Shown here: positions 53,225-61,056 of the stretch, piece after piece
How the letters are laid out: every line of letters begins with the position of its first letter
Position numbering within the stretch: position 1 is the first letter of the stretch
Source: Paludibaculum sp.
Lineage (GTDB): Bacteria; Acidobacteriota; Terriglobia; Bryobacterales; Bryobacteraceae
Assembly: GCA_029973955.1 (NCBI GenBank)
Contig: JARKQJ010000205.1
Span: 62,001-126,000 of the forward strand
DNA length: 64,000 nt
Direction of reading: 5' to 3'
Translations under genes and position numbers: made by a program
Notes under the pieces: model-generated
Told to the model about the DNA's origin: nothing
Databases searched by the model: none
The model's input: the letters and a program-made list of their open reading frames with translations, nothing else

Positions 53225-54307
53225 TCATGGAAGCCGCACAACCTTGCCCGTGCGCGCGGACTCCCGCGCCGCCTCCAGAATCTCCGTGACAATCAGGTTA
53301 TTCTCCAGCGAAGAAAGCCCCGCCGGCTTCACCCGCCCGCGCGCCACTGCCGTCAGGTAGCTCACCGGATCCGCTTCATCCGCCGGCAGTGGTTCCAGCG
53401 CCGGCTGCTGCTCGCCCTTCGCCTTCGGCTCGCGCAGTCGCATCGTGTTGCCGCCCACGGCGTGCGCATATCCGTTCTGCGCATAAACCTCCAGGTCCTT
53501 CCGGCTGTAAGGCCAGTTCCACGAGCCTTCGATGATCCCCACCGCACCCTTGTACTCCACCAGGATGTTGGCTTCGTCGTCCACCTTCGGATAGATCGCC
53601 GGCTTGAACTGCTGTGTGAGCGCGCGCACGGAAATCGGGCGCTCGTTCTCCATCAGCCACGTCATCAGATTCGCGCCATAACAGCCAAAATCGAACAGCG
53701 CCCCCGCGCCGTTCTTCACGGGATCTGTCAGCCAGTTCAGAAACTCGGGACCCACGCCGATCTCCTTCGGGCCTTCGTGCCCGTCCATCGCCACCATCTT
53801 CCGGATCGGCCCATACGCCGGCTGGCGAATCGTTTTGTAGATCGCCGCGTGGCTGCGGTACCACGTCGTCTCATAGTTCACCACCACGGGAATCCCGCTC
53901 TGCTGTGCCGCGCGCTGGATGCGGCGCGCATGCTCCATGGAGACCGCCAGCGGCTTTTCCATCATCACCGGCAGACGCCGCCGCGCCGCGGCTTCCACAA
54001 TCGCCGGGTGATCGAACGTGGACGAAAACGCCGCCACCGCCTCCGGTTTCACCTGGTCGAGCATCGCCTCCAGCGAGGTGAAGAAGATTTTAGGATTTAG
54101 GTGAAAGCGCTCCGCATACGCTTTGTGGAGCGCGGCATCCGGATCCGAGATCCCCACGATCACCACGTCTTTCCCTTGACAGGAACGTAGAAACCCCGCG
54201 GCGTGCCCGTGCGTGAGGCCCGCAATCGCCAGGCGGAGCGGCTCGGCCGAGGTCAGTCCAGATAGTAGAACGGCTGCGAAAACGAGGCGGCGCATTCCAT
54301 TGAGCAT
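53225..54307 (-). CDS. Gfo/Idh/MocA family oxidoreductase
   Basis: 360 residues with an exported leader (MLNGMRRLVFAAVLLSGLTSAEP; an ATG at 54295 is an alternative). The NAD(P)-binding domain reads LRLAIAGLTHGHAAGFLRSC, continues with VGISDPD and MMEKPLAVSMEHARRI (the EKP motif), and the C-terminal domain has NGAGALFDFGCYGANLMTWLM. The usual GxGxxG is replaced by AGLTHGH. Exported members of this family, common in Acidobacteriota and Planctomycetota, act on sugars, in line with the nearby DUF1080 protein. A 64-bp piece of its 3' end is found at 51904. Confidence 0.87.
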   Translation of the reverse strand: MLNGMRRLVFAAVLLSGLTSAEPLRLAIAGLTHGHAAGFLRSCQGKDVVIVGISDPDAALHKAYAERFHLNPKIFFTSLEAMLDQVKPEAVAAFSSTFDHPAIVEAAARRRLPVMMEKPLAVSMEHARRIQRAAQQSGIPVVVNYETTWYRSHAAIYKTIRQPAYGPIRKMVAMDGHEGPKEIGVGPEFLNWLTDPVKNGAGALFDFGCYGANLMTWLMENERPISVRALTQQFKPAIYPKVDDEANILVEYKGAVGIIEGSWNWPYSRKDLEVYAQNGYAHAVGGNTMRLREPKAKGEQQPALEPLPADEADPVSYLTAVARGRVKPAGLSSLENNLIVTEILEAARESARTGKVVRLP

Positions 54308-54402: not shown

Positions 54403-56556
54403 GTGAGCGATACCACAGCCAGCCCTGAAAACCGCCAACCCGCCCCTCCTTTCCGCATCGTCATCGCGGCAAGCTTCACGGCGGAGCCGTTGCGTGCACC
54501 CCTGGAGTTTTGGGCCCGCGTGCTCAAGAGTTCCATCGAGGTCGCCTTCGCGCCTTTCAATCAGGTGGTGCAGACGCTCCTCGATCCCGCCAGCGAGTTC
54601 GCCCGGAACCGCCATGGCGTGAATGCCGCCCTGTGCCGCTTCGAAGACCTCGCTCAGTTCGACATTCGCGGCGAAGATGCCCTGCGGCGGCTGGAAGAAA
54701 ACGCCCTCCAGTTGGCGGCGGCTCTGAAAGAGGCCGCCTCCCGCGCCAGCGTGCCGCTGGTCTTCATCCTCTGCCCGGCCTCGCCGCAGTTCGCCGGCCA
54801 GATGCAGCGCGCTCGCGACATCCTCGCCCGTGAGTTGACCTCGGCTGGCGGCGTGCATTTTGTCGATGACGCCGAGCTGCTCGCCCTCTACCCTGTCGAG
54901 GACTATCACAATCCCGAAGGCGAACGGCTGGGGCGCATCCCCTATACCGAGCCGATGTTCGCCGCGCTCGCCACCATGCTCGCGCGCCGCGCCCAGGCGC
55001 TGGCCCTCGCGCCCTATAAGGTGATCGCCGTCGACTGCGACAACACTCTGTGGCAGGGCATCTGCGGCGAGGACGGCCCGGCCGGTGTCCTGCTCGACCC
55101 GCCGCGCCGCCGCTTGCACGAGTTTCTCCTCCAGCAGCGCCAGGCCGGTATGTTGTTGGCCCTCGCCAGCAAGAACAACGAACAGGATGTGCTCGACACC
55201 TTTGCCGCGCACCCCGAATTCCCTTTGCGCCTGGAACACTTCACCACCTGGCGCCTCAACTGGGAGTCCAAAGCCGCCAACCTGGCGGCCATGGCCGCGG
55301 AACTCAACGTCGGCCTCGATACCTTCATCTTCCTCGACGACAACCCCAAGGAGTGCGCCGAAGTCGCGCAAGGTGCCCCCGAGGCTCTACCCCTCACCCT
55401 CCCGGAAGAGATCGAACAACTGCCCGAGATGCTCGCCCACGTTTGGGCCTTCGATCACCTCCGTGTCACCGAAGAGGACCGCCTGCGCGGCGAACGCATG
55501 GCGCATGCGCGCGAGTTCGGCAATGAGCTGAAGAACGCCGCCAGCCTCGAAGAGTTCATGGCCGGGCTCAACCTGCGCGTCGACGTGCAGCCCATGGAAC
55601 TGGAGCGTCTGGGCCGCGTCTCCCAATTGACGCAGCGGACCAATCAGTTCAATACCACCACGCTGCGTCGGACCGAAAGCGAAATCCAGCAGTTGCTCGA
55701 ACGCTCCGGCTGGAGCTGCTACACCGCCGAGGTGAGCGACCGTTTTGGCGAATACGGGCTGGTGGGCGTCATCCTCGTTCAGCGGCGCATCACCGAGCTG
55801 TACGTGGATTCCCTCTTGCTGAGCTGCCGCGCCTTGGGCCGCGGCGTTGAGCACCGGCTGCTGGCTGCGGTCGCGGAATTGGCGCTCGACGAAGGGATCT
55901 ACACCGTCACAGTGCCCTTCCGCGAGACGGCCAGAAATGCCCCGGCCCGGCAGTTCCTTGAAAGCATCGAGTTCTCTCAGGTGGACGATGAGAACGGCGA
56001 GCGCGTCTATCGCATGCCTGCCACCGAACTTCAGGCGCTGCGCTGGAAGCCCGCCGCCGCGGCCGCCCTGACGCCCGCCGCCACCACTCGGCCGTCCGCG
56101 GTGCTGCGCCAGGTCGACTACGCGAAGATCGCCGCCAATCTGCGCACCGCCGCGCAGGTGGTAGCGGCCATGCGAAAGGAAGCTCAGGCTACCTGGCAGG
56201 CACAGTCGGGCGACAACGCGCCGGCCAGCGACGTTGAACGCAAACTCGCCGCCATCTGGAGCGAACTGCTCGAAAAGCCGGTCTCCTCCGTGACCGCGAA
56301 CTTCTTTGACCTCGGCGGGCACTCCCTTCTCGCCGTCCTCCTGCTCATGCGCGTTAAGGAAGAGTTCTCCGTGGACCTCTCCGTCGACGACGTCTACTCC
56401 GGTACCCTCACCCTCGGCGAACTCGCCGCCGCCATCGAGGCCCGGCAGCTCGGCGAGCTGAACCCCGAAGAGTACCAGGCCCTCCTCGCGGAGATCGAAG
56501 GGCTCAGCGACGAAGAGGTGCGGGCCCTCCTCGAACAAGAGAACAAGGAAGAGTAA
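54403..56556 (+). CDS. FkbH-like HAD-IIIC protein fused to an acyl carrier protein
   Basis: 717 residues. GTG at 54403 is preceded by TATACT (54372-54377) and starts the frame. Order: an FkbH N-terminal region (~10-200), a HAD-IIIC phosphatase with Asp211/Asp213 in VIAVDCDNTLWQGICGEDG, a GNAT-like C-terminal part (QLTQRTNQFNTTTLRRTESEI ... VDSLLLSCRALGRGVE), then from ~605 a carrier protein with the phosphopantetheine Ser641 in FFDLGGHSLLAVLLL. FkbH enzymes load a glyceryl unit from 1,3-bisphosphoglycerate onto a carrier. Here donor and carrier are one chain, followed by an acidic tail (LSDEEVRALLEQENKEE). It starts a run with two glycosyltransferase genes and is followed 6 bp later by the first. 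Confidence 0.9.
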   Translation: MSDTTASPENRQPAPPFRIVIAASFTAEPLRAPLEFWARVLKSSIEVAFAPFNQVVQTLLDPASEFARNRHGVNAALCRFEDLAQFDIRGEDALRRLEENALQLAAALKEAASRASVPLVFILCPASPQFAGQMQRARDILARELTSAGGVHFVDDAELLALYPVEDYHNPEGERLGRIPYTEPMFAALATMLARRAQALALAPYKVIAVDCDNTLWQGICGEDGPAGVLLDPPRRRLHEFLLQQRQAGMLLALASKNNEQDVLDTFAAHPEFPLRLEHFTTWRLNWESKAANLAAMAAELNVGLDTFIFLDDNPKECAEVAQGAPEALPLTLPEEIEQLPEMLAHVWAFDHLRVTEEDRLRGERMAHAREFGNELKNAASLEEFMAGLNLRVDVQPMELERLGRVSQLTQRTNQFNTTTLRRTESEIQQLLERSGWSCYTAEVSDRFGEYGLVGVILVQRRITELYVDSLLLSCRALGRGVEHRLLAAVAELALDEGIYTVTVPFRETARNAPARQFLESIEFSQVDDENGERVYRMPATELQALRWKPAAAAALTPAATTRPSAVLRQVDYAKIAANLRTAAQVVAAMRKEAQATWQAQSGDNAPASDVERKLAAIWSELLEKPVSSVTANFFDLGGHSLLAVLLLMRVKEEFSVDLSVDDVYSGTLTLGELAAAIEARQLGELNPEEYQALLAEIEGLSDEEVRALLEQENKEE

Positions 56557-56562
56557 GCGCGC

Positions 56563-57762
56563 ATGCGGGTCCTCCTGGTTTCAAACGCGAGTTACGATCC
56601 CCCGAGGGGAGGATCGACGCGCTCGAATCTGGTGTGGCTGAAGCATCTCGCCTCGCGCGGACACCACTGCACCGTGGTCTCACCCACGCTCGGCCAAGCG
56701 GACCGCGTCACCGTCAAAGACGGGATCACCATCCATGGCCTGAAAGACCTCTCTTTCCGCGTCGCCGAACTGGGAAAGAAGATCCGCGAGGCCCAGCCCG
56801 ATTGGGTGCTCGTCTCCAGCGAAGACGTCGGCCACGTGCTCATTCGCGAGGCCTCCTCCGTGGCCCCCGGCCGCATCGTCTACCTTGCCCATACCCCGCA
56901 GTTCTATCCCTTCGGACCCGAGAGCTGGCACCTGGACGAGGCCGGAACACAGGCAGTCCGGCAGGCCGCCGCCGTCGTCGTCATCGGCCATCACATGGCC
57001 GCCTACGTCAAGCAACACCTCGGACGCGAAGCTGCCGTCATCCATCCGCCTCTCTACGGCGAACCGCCCTACCGGCAGTTCGGCCGCTTCGGCAGCGGCT
57101 TCGTTCTCATGATCAATCCCTGCGCCGTGAAGGGTCTCAGCATCTTCCTCGATCTCGCCCGGCAGTTTCCTCAGGTGGAGTTCGCTGCCCTCAACGGCTG
57201 GGGGACCACCGCCGCGGATCGCGCCGCGCTCGCCGCCGGCGCCAATACACGATTGCTCGAAAATGTTCCGGACATCGAAGACGTCCTCGCCCAGGCGCGC
57301 CTTCTCCTCATGCCTTCGGTCTGGTATGAGGGCTTCGGCCTCATCGCCATGGAGGCCATGCTGCGGGGGCTGCCCGTCATCGCCAGTGACTCCGGCGGTC
57401 TCGAAGAGGCCAAGCGCGGAACCGGCTACGTCGTGTCCGTGAGGCCCGTCGAACGCTATGAGCGCTCGTTCGACGAGACCCGTATGCCCCGCGCCGTGGT
57501 CCCCCAACAGGACACGCGGGCCTGGGCCGCCGCGCTCACGACGCTGTTGACCGATGAGGCCGCGTATTGGGAAGAGGCCCGGCGCTCTCGCGATGCCGGC
57601 GTCCGCTTCGTGAGCGCCCTCGATGCCGGCGACTTCGAAAAGCTGCTGCTCGGGCTCCAGCCCTGCGCCGAACCGCTGCGCGCCGAAGACCGCCTCAGGA
57701 ACCTCGACGCGCGGAAGCGCGCCCTCCTCCTCGCGCGCCTGAAGAAGAAGGCTCAGGGATGA
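56563..57762 (+). CDS. GT4-type glycosyltransferase with basic C-terminal helix
   Basis: 399 residues of the GT-B fold. The acceptor domain starts MRVLLVSNASYDPPRGGSTRSNLVWLKHL, the donor domain has VLMINPCAVKGLSIFLDLARQFP, and the nucleotide-binding E-x7-E motif is YEGFGLIAMEAMLRGLPVIASDSGG. It should transfer a sugar from a nucleotide sugar in the cytoplasm. The last 19 residues, LDARKRALLLARLKKKAQG, form a basic amphipathic helix that recurs inside the next protein and resembles the linkers at the ends of NRPS proteins. Start 6 bp after the carrier-protein gene; the stop overlaps the next start (ATGA). Confidence 0.88.
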   Translation: MRVLLVSNASYDPPRGGSTRSNLVWLKHLASRGHHCTVVSPTLGQADRVTVKDGITIHGLKDLSFRVAELGKKIREAQPDWVLVSSEDVGHVLIREASSVAPGRIVYLAHTPQFYPFGPESWHLDEAGTQAVRQAAAVVVIGHHMAAYVKQHLGREAAVIHPPLYGEPPYRQFGRFGSGFVLMINPCAVKGLSIFLDLARQFPQVEFAALNGWGTTAADRAALAAGANTRLLENVPDIEDVLAQARLLLMPSVWYEGFGLIAMEAMLRGLPVIASDSGGLEEAKRGTGYVVSVRPVERYERSFDETRMPRAVVPQQDTRAWAAALTTLLTDEAAYWEEARRSRDAGVRFVSALDAGDFEKLLLGLQPCAEPLRAEDRLRNLDARKRALLLARLKKKAQG

Positions 57763-59777
57763 GAGTTCTCCTGGCGCATAATTCCACTTACTTCCCCGCG
57801 CTTGGCGGAGGCGACAAGAGCAACCGCCTGCTCATGGAGGCCCTCGCCGGCCGGGGCCACACCGTGCAGGTTGTCACCCGCGTCGAGCAGTTCGGCGAGG
57901 CGGGCCACGCCCTCTTGCTCGACGAGCTCAGGCAGCGCGGCATCGATGCCGTGGAAAGGGATGGCGGCCTCCGTTACACCCTCGGCGGCGTCGAGGTGCG
58001 CGTCCTCACGCGCCATCCGCAACTGCGCGCGTTCTTCCAGGAGTGCATCACGGCGTTTGAGCCGGAGATCATCATCACCTCCACCGATGATCCGGGCCAG
58101 ATCCTCTTTGATATCGCCGTCAGGACGCCTCAGGCGCGCGTCGTCTATCTGGTCCGCGCCACCATCGCCGTGCCCTTCGGGCCCGATAGCTCCATGGTGA
58201 GTTCCTCGAAAACCGCCATGCTCAAACAGGTCGATCTCGTCGTGGGCGTCAGCCACTATGTGGCAGGCTATGTCCGCGAATGGAGCGGGCTCGACGCCAT
58301 CCACGTCCCCATCTCCCTCCTCGATGCCGGCGACCCATATCCGCAACTCGGCAGCTTCGACAACGAGTTCGTGTCGATGGTCAACCCCTGCGCCGTGAAA
58401 GGCATCTCCATCTTTCTCGAACTCGCCAGGCGCATGCCGGAAACACGCTTCGCGGCCGTGCCCACCTGGGGCACGCAACAGGACGAAATGGATGCCATGC
58501 GCGCACTCCCCAACGTCACACTGGTAGACCGCATGGATAACATCGACGGGCTGCTCCGGCGCACCAAGGTGATGCTCGTGCCCAGCATCTGGGCCGAGGC
58601 GCGGTCGAGAATCGTCCTGGAGGCGATGAGCCGCGGCGTGCCGGTCCTTGCCAGCGACGTGGGCGGCCTGCACGAAGCCAAGCTCGGTGTGCCCTATCTC
58701 GTCCGCGTCAATCCCATCGTCAAGTACAAGCCCTCGGTGGACGCCGGCATGGTGCCTGTTGCGGAGGTCCCGCCGCAGAATTTCGATCCCTGGGAGAAGA
58801 TCCTTCGCCGGCTCGTCACCGATGAAGCCCACTGGAAAGAGATCGCTGCCGCCTCCCGGCGCGCGGCCCTGGAGTATGCCGCGAACCTCAACGTGCTGCC
58901 GTTCGAGCATGCCCTGGAAGAGGTGCTCCGCAAGCCCAAGAAGCAGGTGACCGCCACTCAGAAGCCCGCGCTCACCGACGACAAGCGGCGCCTCCTGGCG
59001 CTGCGTCTCAAGCAGCGCGCATCCGGAGTCAGGCAGGATTCGCATCCCTGGTTCCCCGGCATCGAAGAGGCCCCGCCAGGCGCGCTGAAACTGTTTTGCT
59101 TCCCTTGGGCCGGCGGCGGCGCGCTGCCGTTCCGCGCCTGGCGGGAGTCGCTGCAAGGTGTGGCGGCCGTCGTGCCCGTGCGGCTGCCCGGCCGCGAAAC
59201 GCGGACCGCTGAGCCGGCCTTCGAGAGAATGGAACCGCTCGTGGCGGAACTGCTCCAGCAGATCAGGCCCTATGCCGAAGGCCCCTTCGCCTTCTTCGGC
59301 CACAGCATGGGCGCCGGCATTAGTTTCGAACTGGCCCGTGCGCTACGGCGCGAACACCTGACGCTCCCCCGCTCGCTCCACGTCTCTGGCGCGCGCGCCG
59401 CTCAGTTCCGGCTCAACCACGTGCCTCCGCCCGAGCCCATCCTCCGCGACTTCATTGAGGAACTGCGCCGACTGGAGGGCTTCCCCCCCAGCGTCTTGAA
59501 TAATCCCGAACTCCTCAAACTGGCGCTGCCTGCCCTCCTGGCCGACGCGCGGCTCTACCGCCACTACCGCTACTCGCCCGGTGAGCCCCTCCCGCTCCCC
59601 GTCTTCGCCTACGGCGGAGACGCCGATCCGAACGTCACCGTCGCCCACCTCAATGCCTGGGCCGAACAGACCTCCGTCTATTTCCGGCGCTCTGAGTTCC
59701 GCGGCGGACACTTCTATCTCGAAGCCTCCCAGGCCGCGCTGCTCGGAGCCTTGAAGGCCGACCTCAGGCAGGCGTGA
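57759..59777 (+). CDS. Glycosyltransferase fused to a type II thioesterase
   Basis: The ATG at 57759 overlaps the previous stop (ATGA); a longer frame upstream is the other gene's shadow. 672 residues: a GT4 domain (~1-400; ALGGGDKSNRLLMEALAGRGH, MVNPCAVKGISIFLELARRMP and EARSRIVLEAMSRGVPVLASDVGG), a basic helix (405-423, LTDDKRRLLALRLKQRASG), and a thioesterase (~440-672) with LFCFPWAGGGALPFRAW, the nucleophile Ser516 in FFGHSMGAG and His651 in RGGHFYL. Type II thioesterases release or edit acyl chains on carrier proteins. Fusion with a glycosyltransferase is unusual and implies that glycosylation and release happen on the carrier of the upstream protein. Confidence 0.88.
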   Translation: MRVLLAHNSTYFPALGGGDKSNRLLMEALAGRGHTVQVVTRVEQFGEAGHALLLDELRQRGIDAVERDGGLRYTLGGVEVRVLTRHPQLRAFFQECITAFEPEIIITSTDDPGQILFDIAVRTPQARVVYLVRATIAVPFGPDSSMVSSSKTAMLKQVDLVVGVSHYVAGYVREWSGLDAIHVPISLLDAGDPYPQLGSFDNEFVSMVNPCAVKGISIFLELARRMPETRFAAVPTWGTQQDEMDAMRALPNVTLVDRMDNIDGLLRRTKVMLVPSIWAEARSRIVLEAMSRGVPVLASDVGGLHEAKLGVPYLVRVNPIVKYKPSVDAGMVPVAEVPPQNFDPWEKILRRLVTDEAHWKEIAAASRRAALEYAANLNVLPFEHALEEVLRKPKKQVTATQKPALTDDKRRLLALRLKQRASGVRQDSHPWFPGIEEAPPGALKLFCFPWAGGGALPFRAWRESLQGVAAVVPVRLPGRETRTAEPAFERMEPLVAELLQQIRPYAEGPFAFFGHSMGAGISFELARALRREHLTLPRSLHVSGARAAQFRLNHVPPPEPILRDFIEELRRLEGFPPSVLNNPELLKLALPALLADARLYRHYRYSPGEPLPLPVFAYGGDADPNVTVAHLNAWAEQTSVYFRRSEFRGGHFYLEASQAALLGALKADLRQA

Positions 59778-61056
59778 CCGGTTTTTCAAACGCCCTCTCG
59801 GGCTCTTTCCAGTCCTGCTCCGGTTCGGGTAGTTTTCCCGCGGCGTCGGCCCACGCCCAGAACACCGCCGTCGATGCGCTGAGGAGCCCCGCCACGAATC
59901 CGATCTGGCGCGGAGAATACACCGTGCACGCCACCGCCGCCGCGCCCATCGAGAGCATCATCGTGGCGTTCGACATCGTCTCCACGGTGGTGTAAACCCG
60001 CCCCCGCAGGTGGTCCGCCACGTGCAACAGCAGCATCGTCTTGTTCATCACGGAGTTCATTCCCATGAACAGGCGCGAGATGGTGATGAAGAAGATCGCC
60101 GCCCAGATGTTCGGCATGACGCTGAACAGCGAGTAGCAGAGCCCGTGGAAGAAGAACGCGCAGGTGACGGCGCGCTTGTACCTGCGGAAGTGCAGGTGGT
60201 TTTCCATCCGGTGCGCCAGGAACCCGCCGATCACCAGGCCGATCCCCGCGAAACTCCAGATCAGGCCTGTGCCCGCCGGCCCGCGCTGGTACACGTTCTG
60301 GCCGAACAGAGTGAACAGCACCTGCGCGGCGCCTCCGCCCGTCGCCCAGCCGATCCCCAGCAGCCCGATCCCTAATATCAGCGGCCGCGCACGCATGTAG
60401 CGCAGCCCCTCCCGGAACTCCGCATAGTTCGACGTGCGCGCCTTCGGCGCGTCGCTGCGGATCGGGCGGAAGTGCCCCTCCGGCCCGCGCAGGCTCCAAA
60501 TGGCCATGGCGCTGAACAGGAAGCTGCAGGCGTTCGCCACGAAAGCCAGTTCGTAGCCGAAGCCGGCCGTGGAGATGCCGCCCAGCATCGTCCCCAGCGA
60601 AAGCGTCAACCACGAAGTCGTTTGTGTCAGGGCGTTGGCTGTGCTCAGCTCATCGCGCGACGCGATTCGCGGCAGAATCGCCGCCCTGCCGCTGTTGAAA
60701 AACGGCGAGGCGAACATCAGCAGGCCGGAGAGTGTGTAGAGCAGCCACGTCTCGCGATATGTCAGAAGAAGGATGTGCAGCGCCGCGACGGCCGCGCGCA
60801 GCAGATCGGAGGCGATCATCACCTTCCGCCGGTCCAGTTTGTCGAGGATCACCCCCGCCACGGGCCCGGCGAAGATTGCGGGAAGTACGCGGGCGATCAT
60901 CACCGCTCCCACCGTGAAACCGCTCCCCGTCAGATGCAGCGCCAGAGAAAGCACCGCTATCGAGTTGAAGTGATCGCCAACCTCTGAAACCGCCTGTCCG
61001 AACCATAGGTTCCGGTAGTTGCGGTTACGGCGTAGGATGAGGGGCAGGCCAGGCAC
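59764..61056 (-). CDS. MFS exporter (MFS_3/EntS-like)
   Basis: 430 residues with about 12 hydrophobic helices. It begins LRRNRNYRNLWFGQAVSEVGDHFNSIAVLSLALHLTGS, and the motif between helices 2 and 3 is GVILDKLDRRKVMIASD. This is the MFS_3 family of exporters that includes enterobactin exporter EntS. It is convergent with the glycosyltransferase-thioesterase gene, overlapping it by 14 bp, so it has its own promoter on the other side, yet its position at the end of the carrier/glycosyltransferase locus suggests that it exports the product. Substrate inferred only. Confidence 0.88.
   Translation of the reverse strand: MPGLPLILRRNRNYRNLWFGQAVSEVGDHFNSIAVLSLALHLTGSGFTVGAVMIARVLPAIFAGPVAGVILDKLDRRKVMIASDLLRAAVAALHILLLTYRETWLLYTLSGLLMFASPFFNSGRAAILPRIASRDELSTANALTQTTSWLTLSLGTMLGGISTAGFGYELAFVANACSFLFSAMAIWSLRGPEGHFRPIRSDAPKARTSNYAEFREGLRYMRARPLILGIGLLGIGWATGGGAAQVLFTLFGQNVYQRGPAGTGLIWSFAGIGLVIGGFLAHRMENHLHFRRYKRAVTCAFFFHGLCYSLFSVMPNIWAAIFFITISRLFMGMNSVMNKTMLLLHVADHLRGRVYTTVETMSNATMMLSMGAAAVACTVYSPRQIGFVAGLLSASTAVFWAWADAAGKLPEPEQDWKEPERAFEKPVTPA

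Follow-up and report, generated by a model that had tools for sequence, protein, structure and literature searches.

The window analysed here is a stretch of 64,000 nucleotides from the genome of a Paludibaculum species of the Acidobacteriota (GCA_029973955.1, contig JARKQJ010000205.1, positions 62,001 to 126,000), and it contains an operon in which an FkbH-type protein fused to a carrier domain is followed by two glycosyltransferases (GTs) of family GT4, the second of which is fused to a thioesterase (TE). The first gene (54403..56556, + strand) encodes the FkbH-carrier protein of 717 aa and ends 6 bp before the gene for GT4-a, a retaining-type GT4 of 399 aa (56563..57762, +), which overlaps by 4 bp (ATGA) the gene for the 672-aa GT4-b-TE fusion (57759..59777, +). 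A convergent gene for a 430-aa exporter of the major facilitator superfamily (MFS; 59764..61056, -), most like TIGR00900 and EntS-type proteins and scoring under those models' cut-offs, overlaps the end of the GT4-b-TE gene by 14 bp. Calls of open reading frames (ORFs) and domain matches confirm the original prediction, made from the bare sequence, that an FkbH-HAD-carrier, a GT4 and a GT4-TE fusion are coupled within 6 bp and face an MFS gene; the locus is real and unusual. The window forms part of contig C196 of a host assembly of 6.5 Mb in 282 contigs, 94.5% complete and 6.05% contaminated; a neighbouring gene family and the relatives of the locus mark it as Acidobacteriota-like.

The FkbH part matches model TIGR01686 with 293 bits over residues 205-525, well above the curated cut-off of 146.65, and retains the DxDxT motif of the HAD domain. 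In its AlphaFold model (mean pLDDT 85, pTM 0.58), residues 12-355 match BF1531 (Z 30.9), covering an N-terminal domain and a HAD phosphatase, residues ~391-541 match GNAT folds (Z ~15), and carrier proteins are matched at Z ~14. The GNAT-like half carries a cysteine, Cys475 (codon LLSCRALGRGVE, 55825..55827, +), which by analogy with FkbH/OzmB-type enzymes we take to be the candidate glyceryl-thioester cysteine. The carrier (PP-binding) domain, residues 614-678 (56242..56436, +; 54.4 bits), is of the peptidyl-carrier type, with GGHS at Ser641 (codon 56323-56325). In an alignment of 25 of 35 FkbH-carrier proteins, D211, D213, T215, K290, D312, D313, C475 and S641 are all invariant.

Both glycosyltransferases have a Glycos_transf_1/GT4 match and an EX7E motif. 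In alignments of 27 of 35 GT4-a proteins and 27 of 38 GT4-b-TE proteins, E256 of GT4-a is invariant and E264 is present in at least 90% of rows, while E280 and E288 of GT4-b are invariant, as are S516, D623 and H651 of the TE. In the model of the fusion protein (mean pLDDT 83, pTM 0.63), the GT4 half lies near MshA, sucrose-phosphate synthase and BshA (Z 28-31). MshA and BshA, the latter of which has been solved with malate and with N-acetylglucosamine (GlcNAc)-malate, share the GT-B fold (Z ~28-31) and the EX7E motif with GT4-b; they differ in having 14-20% identity to it and belonging to other operons, and in lacking the TE fusion and the LxxxKRxLLxxRL tail found here. The TE half (59088..59756, +; PF00975 over residues 444-666, 140 bits) has a full Ser-Asp-His triad (S516-D623-H651) and is of type II, with RedJ, BorB and RifR as its nearest folds (Z 30-31) and RifR matched at E 6e-61 by the profile of the GT4-b-TE alignment. 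Whereas RifR, RedJ and BorB stand alone, the window TE is covalently fused to a glycosyltransferase and in this respect differs from a stand-alone editing protein.

The same gene order, sought in other genomes as the original prediction had proposed, recurs widely. Confirmed stretches numbered 98 in a scan covering 84,980 species genomes, and the best 80 were analysed, with gene starts and gaps taken from our own gene-calling script. Of these 80, 78 lie in records with acidobacterial titles, the other two in records titled, oddly, as Arcobacter and Phycisphaerales. The FkbH-carrier gene directly precedes the GT genes in 62 of 69 testable loci, at a median gap of 3 bp, the loci without it next door being L114, L144, L146, L158, L174 (where a small extra ORF was called in between), L175 and L177. 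GT4-a lies directly upstream of GT4-b, or is fused to it, in 66 of 72 testable loci; in L144 an aldo/keto-reductase-like ORF (identified by eye) separates the two. GT4-b and the TE form one protein in 75 of the 80 loci, two of the other five (L172 and L173) stopping at a contig edge, and in 16 a single ORF encodes GT4-a-GT4-b-TE. The genes flanking the operon vary between genera. Because the gene order recurs in 62 of 69 loci and the catalytic residues are conserved, the locus is not a chance assembly; judged from gene arrangement, FkbH-carrier, GT4-a and GT4-b-TE are a unit.

A second count, which is not independent of the first because the 80 loci partly share contigs with the genomes concerned (L099, for example, is G008:C192), gives the same picture. 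Of 61 genomes given both searches, 25 match both proteins strongly, at E <=1e-150 for FkbH-carrier and E <=1e-100 for GT4-b-TE by limits set after the lists were viewed; FkbH-carrier alone is strong in one (G081) and GT4-b-TE alone in none. By BLAST, 18 of 70 loci have a PPTase-like (phosphopantetheinyl transferase) gene as the first or second gene downstream, a count that includes the source contigs of all six PPTase queries; five of the six genes scanned with Pfam score above the PPTase cut-off and that of L116 below it. L135 also has such a gene on a contig too short for inclusion in the 70, and G024 has a TE fragment at a contig end followed by a PPTase-like ORF. A D-2-hydroxyacid dehydrogenase ORF with a conserved start is found downstream of GT4-b-TE in 10 of the 80 loci (L123, L124, L132, L136, L139, L151, L153, L159, L165 and L170), in nine of them after the PPTase-like gene. 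The family is confirmed by Pfam in the four that were scanned (L123, L139, L153 and L165), and it is a possible glycerate dehydrogenase.

In some relatives the operon is extended at its 5' end. L148, L154 (the contig of L070) and L166 each carry a single ORF of 1762-1849 aa with the order AMP-binding/FAAL, carrier, condensation (C) domain, FkbH and carrier. By Pfam, each has an AMP-binding domain whose C-terminal part is DIP2-like, a C domain and two stretches of PP-binding type; the NCBIfam FAAL and FkbH models match L070, and FkbH in the other two was recognized by BLAST. L174 has a C domain ahead of FkbH-carrier in a frame that runs past the contig start. The absence of adenylation (A) and condensation domains claimed in the original prediction thus holds for the window and fails for some relatives, where the very ORF that encodes FkbH has both. 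On an FkbH tree of 67 rows (64 of the 80 loci, with FkbH matches >300 bits, the window and two others), the state shared by L148, L154, L166 and L174 needs a single change by a quick method; the root is uncertain, the intended outgroup L080 falling beside the FAAL clade, and whether FAAL was gained or lost is correspondingly unsure.

This architecture has a counterpart in nonribosomal peptide synthetases (NRPSs). The available text of PMC10099666 gives the vioprolide and corramycin starter modules as FAAL-ACP-C-FkbH/HAD-T (ACP, acyl carrier protein; T, thiolation), and that of PMC8949500 reports that FkbH domains of NRPSs load glyceryl from 1,3-bisphosphoglycerate and that vioprolide has an ester-bond-forming C domain. 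The window shares with these starter modules, as described there, the FkbH-T unit, and the three relatives share the whole FAAL-ACP-C-FkbH-T arrangement in one ORF; unlike them, the operons continue with two GT4s and a TE in place of NRPS modules, and the window copy has no FAAL-ACP-C upstream in the same protein. Nor does the window protein appear to feed downstream NRPS modules, no condensation domain having been found in the host assembly. Given the vioprolide-type architecture, the operon resembles a starter bimodule that has been detached from its NRPS and combined with glycosyltransferases; of that bimodule, the window would have kept the FkbH-carrier half alone. Because the related operons add FAAL-ACP-C, some members of the family probably produce an acylated glycerate.

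Ketosynthase, acyltransferase, adenylation and condensation domains had been reported missing near the operon, and the wider host genome agrees with this. The whole assembly holds one PF00109 ketosynthase match, one PF00698 acyltransferase match and 7 AMP-binding matches, all on other contigs, and no match to the condensation domain in the 94.5% of the genome that it represents, so that the full polyketide synthase (PKS) or NRPS that would have spoken against the original prediction was not found. PF00109 is blind to FabH-type enzymes, a family not searched as such in the host; among the genes of the window locus, no FabH-like enzyme stands beside FkbH and the carrier. Two PPTase-superfamily matches lie elsewhere in the assembly. 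An AMP-binding/carrier ORF on host contig C1 was considered as an NRPS and set aside, since by eye it resembles an acyl-ACP ligase/acyltransferase, and no FAAL orthologue occurs among the host AMP-binding loci (best identity 28.7%, against 59-63% between FAAL operons). Elsewhere in the host, at 9389-10561 of L083 (G000:C180), a 77-aa carrier is followed by a KASIII-like ORF beside an MBOAT-like ORF (by eye). The host also has a second FkbH, of 641 aa (34% identity over residues 17-533), followed by a separate 83-aa carrier, at 8286-10449 of L061 (G000:C259:24001-44000); by eye the pair sits within a polysaccharide export/nonulosonate-like cluster, which suggests glyceryl decoration of a surface glycan.

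The two glycosyltransferases share a short motif. The tail of GT4-a (LDARKRALLLARL, 57703..57741, +) and the linker that joins GT4-b to the TE (LTDDKRRLLALRL, 58971..59009, +) both follow the pattern LxxxKRxLLxxRL, which was rewritten after the alignments had been seen and recounted on whole genes, several rows of the GT4-a alignment having been cut at the BLAST edge. Among stand-alone GT4-a proteins, 43 of 51 have it close to the C terminus, and 65 of 75 GT4-b-TE proteins have it in the linker; the same pattern matched 9 of 6300 shuffled tails. None of the 16 GT4-a-GT4-b fusions has it at the corresponding place. We read it as a possible docking helix that would be dispensable once the enzymes are joined; it presumably resembles the linkers of NRPSs.

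A search of 396 genomes of the phylum with GT4-a at E 1e-40, in which only a few best candidates per genome were scored, found a match in the host and two others alone. In one of these two, G149, a distant homologue forms residues 13-450 of a 2970-aa protein with the order GT4-C-A-T-C-A-T-TE, and a motif of the LxxxKRxLLxxRL kind lies between the GT4 and the first C domain. On a tree built from 22 of 27 GT4-a and 23 of 27 GT4-b rows, the GT4-a rows form a single clade, and the clade that holds GT4-b includes paralogues paired with FkbM-type methyltransferases; the GT4s of G149 and of Streptomyces are placed, weakly, beside GT4-a. Such paralogues (L175, L177, L178 and L092) are GT4-b-like proteins with no TE, followed by an FkbM-type methyltransferase (identified with Pfam/NCBIfam in L175 and by eye in the others), and in L175 an FkbH-carrier gene lies directly upstream, so that a load-glycosylate-methylate version of the pathway may exist.

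Two Streptomyces plasmids, from strains NBC_00441 and NBC_00209, each carry a GT4 of the subfamily within ~3.8 kb of a match to FkbH. About 20 kb of the NBC_00441 plasmid holds an ACP, a GT1-type glycosyltransferase, a GT4 (39% identical to GT4-b), a TE on the opposite strand and an FkbH-carrier (42%), together with genes for a glucose-1-phosphate thymidylyltransferase, a nucleotide-sugar dehydrogenase, an epimerase/dehydratase, an MFS protein and a lone condensation protein. Both plasmids thus resemble the window in pairing FkbH with the GT4, and NBC_00441 also in its carrier, ACP and TE; it differs in having an unfused TE, a GT1-type enzyme, sugar-nucleotide genes and a stand-alone C domain, NBC_00209 being known from matches alone. 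On gene content, Streptomyces adds a second phylum where FkbH and GT4 parts meet, there with candidate donor-making genes.

What would such an operon do? We favour, with about even confidence, a reduced FkbH-primed assembly line that makes a glycosylated glycerate by loading, glycosylation and release, a scheme whose substrate and order of steps we infer from the parts. A PPTase would first convert the carrier domain to its holo form, and the HAD-GNAT part of FkbH would then dephosphorylate 1,3-bisphosphoglycerate (or 3-phosphoglycerate) and move the glyceryl unit to Ser641. This loading step is very probable, because it is the reaction reported for FkbH proteins in the available text of PMC7489565 and PMC8949500, and the retained catalytic motifs agree with the original prediction of it. 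GT4-a and GT4-b would next place one or two sugars from nucleotide-sugar donors on the glyceryl hydroxyl or hydroxyls, most probably while the unit is tethered. That the glycosyltransferases act on glyceryl at all is likely, and the acceptor is chemically reasonable, if unproven, because BshA, with a fold like that of GT4-b, joins a sugar to the hydroxyacid malate; that they act on glyceryl while it is bound to the carrier is an evenly balanced proposition. The type II TE fused to GT4-b would finally hydrolyse the thioester, freeing the glycosyl-glycerate for export by the MFS protein. Hydrolytic release is somewhat more probable than not in our judgement; because type II TEs often edit, release of the final product by this one is an assumption. 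In the FAAL-ACP-C relatives, a fatty acyl group would be esterified to the glyceryl beforehand, as in vioprolide starter modules, and the product would be a glycolipid.

The C-FkbH-carrier, GT4-NRPS and GT-TE fusions favour tethered chemistry, and glycosylation on the carrier is plausible and now better supported by these gene arrangements. The linkage of glycosylation, carrier and release that had been predicted gains from the fusion of the TE to one or both glycosyltransferases, from the close spacing of the operon and from the PPTase-like gene that adjoins it in some relatives, the tethering itself keeping its conditional standing. The small glycosylated acid envisaged as the product would be one member of a broader set, since the FAAL-ACP-C relatives probably yield acylated glycerate and a GT4 homologue is built into an NRPS. 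Several observations count on the other side. The completeness of the host assembly is 94.5% and its contamination 6%; the pTM values of 0.58 and 0.63 leave the domain arrangement open; and a fold match to BshA and MshA fixes neither donor nor acceptor. A relative of the window MFS lies near the operon in just 17 of 80 loci, in 13 of them convergent and next door. GT4-b paralogues with an FkbM-type methyltransferase have no FkbH beside them in L177 and L092 (L178 lies too near a contig edge), and the subfamily GT4s of Niveispirillum and G281 have none near, from which it follows that these glycosyltransferases can occur with no adjacent carrier. Type II TEs are, moreover, often editing enzymes. 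Two further observations, the FkbH-carrier-TE proteins and a flippase-family gene, are best taken up with the alternative that they favour.

That alternative is the main rival, although we consider it unlikely: the TE would serve as an acyltransferase, moving glyceryl to a sugar of a small glycoside, glycolipid or glycan made by the two GT4s. FkbH-carrier-TE occurs as a single protein at 14968-17979 of L191, an Aquisphaera plasmid, where it sits inside a polysaccharide/exosortase cluster, and at 9054-11987 of L080 (G081), and the absence of GT4-a or GT4-b matches around either fits glyceryl transfer to a glycan. The second FkbH and carrier of the host, in their polysaccharide/nonulosonate-like cluster (by eye), point the same way, as does the Polysacc_synt_3 flippase-family gene downstream of the PPTase in L169. 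Against glyceryl transfer, the nearest relatives of the TE are the type II enzymes RifR, RedJ and BorB, which are hydrolytic; a GT4 homologue forms part of an NRPS; and no recurrent glycan-assembly gene stands out in the neighbourhood tables, in which most neighbours are unannotated.

Glycosylation might instead take place off the carrier, with the TE freeing glycerate (or editing the carrier), the GT4s acting on free glycerate or another soluble acceptor, and the fusion doing no more than co-localizing the enzymes. MshA and BshA, among the nearest folds of GT4-b, do act on small acceptors in free form, yet the fusions to FAAL-C and of a GT4 to an NRPS speak for chemistry on a tether, and loading of the carrier would serve no purpose if glycerate or 3-phosphoglycerate could be glycosylated directly, as in the known glucosylglycerate and mannosylglycerate pathways; we regard this course as quite improbable. 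Service in trans to a PKS or NRPS encoded elsewhere, tailoring its product by supply of glyceryl or methoxymalonyl units, has a precedent in known clusters where FkbH proteins feed PKSs (PMC7489565, available text), and very long, NRPS/PKS-like carrier-bearing frames do occur in some relatives. In the host, however, the searches for ketosynthase, acyltransferase, condensation, AMP-binding and PP-binding domains disfavour it, the inventory containing no condensation domain, one PF00109 ketosynthase and one acyltransferase, and there are no FabH-like or methoxymalonyl genes among those of the locus; it is very improbable indeed.

If the GT4s do act on the carrier, glycosylation would become a step of the assembly line, one that could perhaps be transferred from one system to another. 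In natural-product pathways it is usually treated as a late event, on the released product. The window would also represent a thiotemplated pathway free of any chain extension, a form likely to be overlooked by genome-mining rules keyed on ketosynthase, A or C domains. A further close arrangement is the glycerate-utilization operon of tetronate pathways, which in the available text of PMC7489565 consists of FkbH, ACP, a FabH-like protein, an acyltransferase and a dehydratase, the FkbH-like protein forming glyceryl-ACP; the window operon shares an FkbH-like protein predicted to do the same and differs in having GT4s and a type II-like TE in place of the FabH-like enzyme, acyltransferase and dehydratase. 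No paper on an FkbH-carrier/GT4/TE operon appeared among the matches listed from the openly licensed literature, which is weak evidence that it is unpublished, as subscription papers fall mostly outside that body, and the available part of PMC11837247 mentions neither FkbH nor a glycosyltransferase. New among the arrangements reported here are FAAL-ACP-C ahead of FkbH-carrier in three relatives, an NRPS headed by a GT4, and FkbH near GT4 on two Streptomyces plasmids. More tentatively, the GT4s may form a subfamily dedicated to thioester-tethered hydroxyacyl units and docked through an LxxxKRxLLxxRL helix, serving minimal thiotemplated glycoside pathways with no chain extension in Acidobacteriota and Streptomyces, the FAAL-C forms yielding acyl-glyceryl glycolipids. 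The operon, present in at least 80 loci, is short enough to be expressed whole, and its product class (glycosyl-glycerates and acyl-glyceryl glycolipids) is testable.

Horizontal acquisition of the window locus was considered and is not supported, its G+C content being that of the flanks and both proteins occurring in 8 of 8 same-genus genomes searched. Divergent from the operon, at 53225-54307 (-), lies a gene for a Gfo/Idh/MocA-family oxidoreductase with relatives in 7 loci, mostly in the same place, an association that may reflect genus-level synteny alone. In L187 (G281) and L184 (Niveispirillum), the subfamily GT4 lies near an apparent sulfotransferase and a WD40-type protein (by eye), a set that, recurring in two distant bacteria, possibly marks another recurring pathway.

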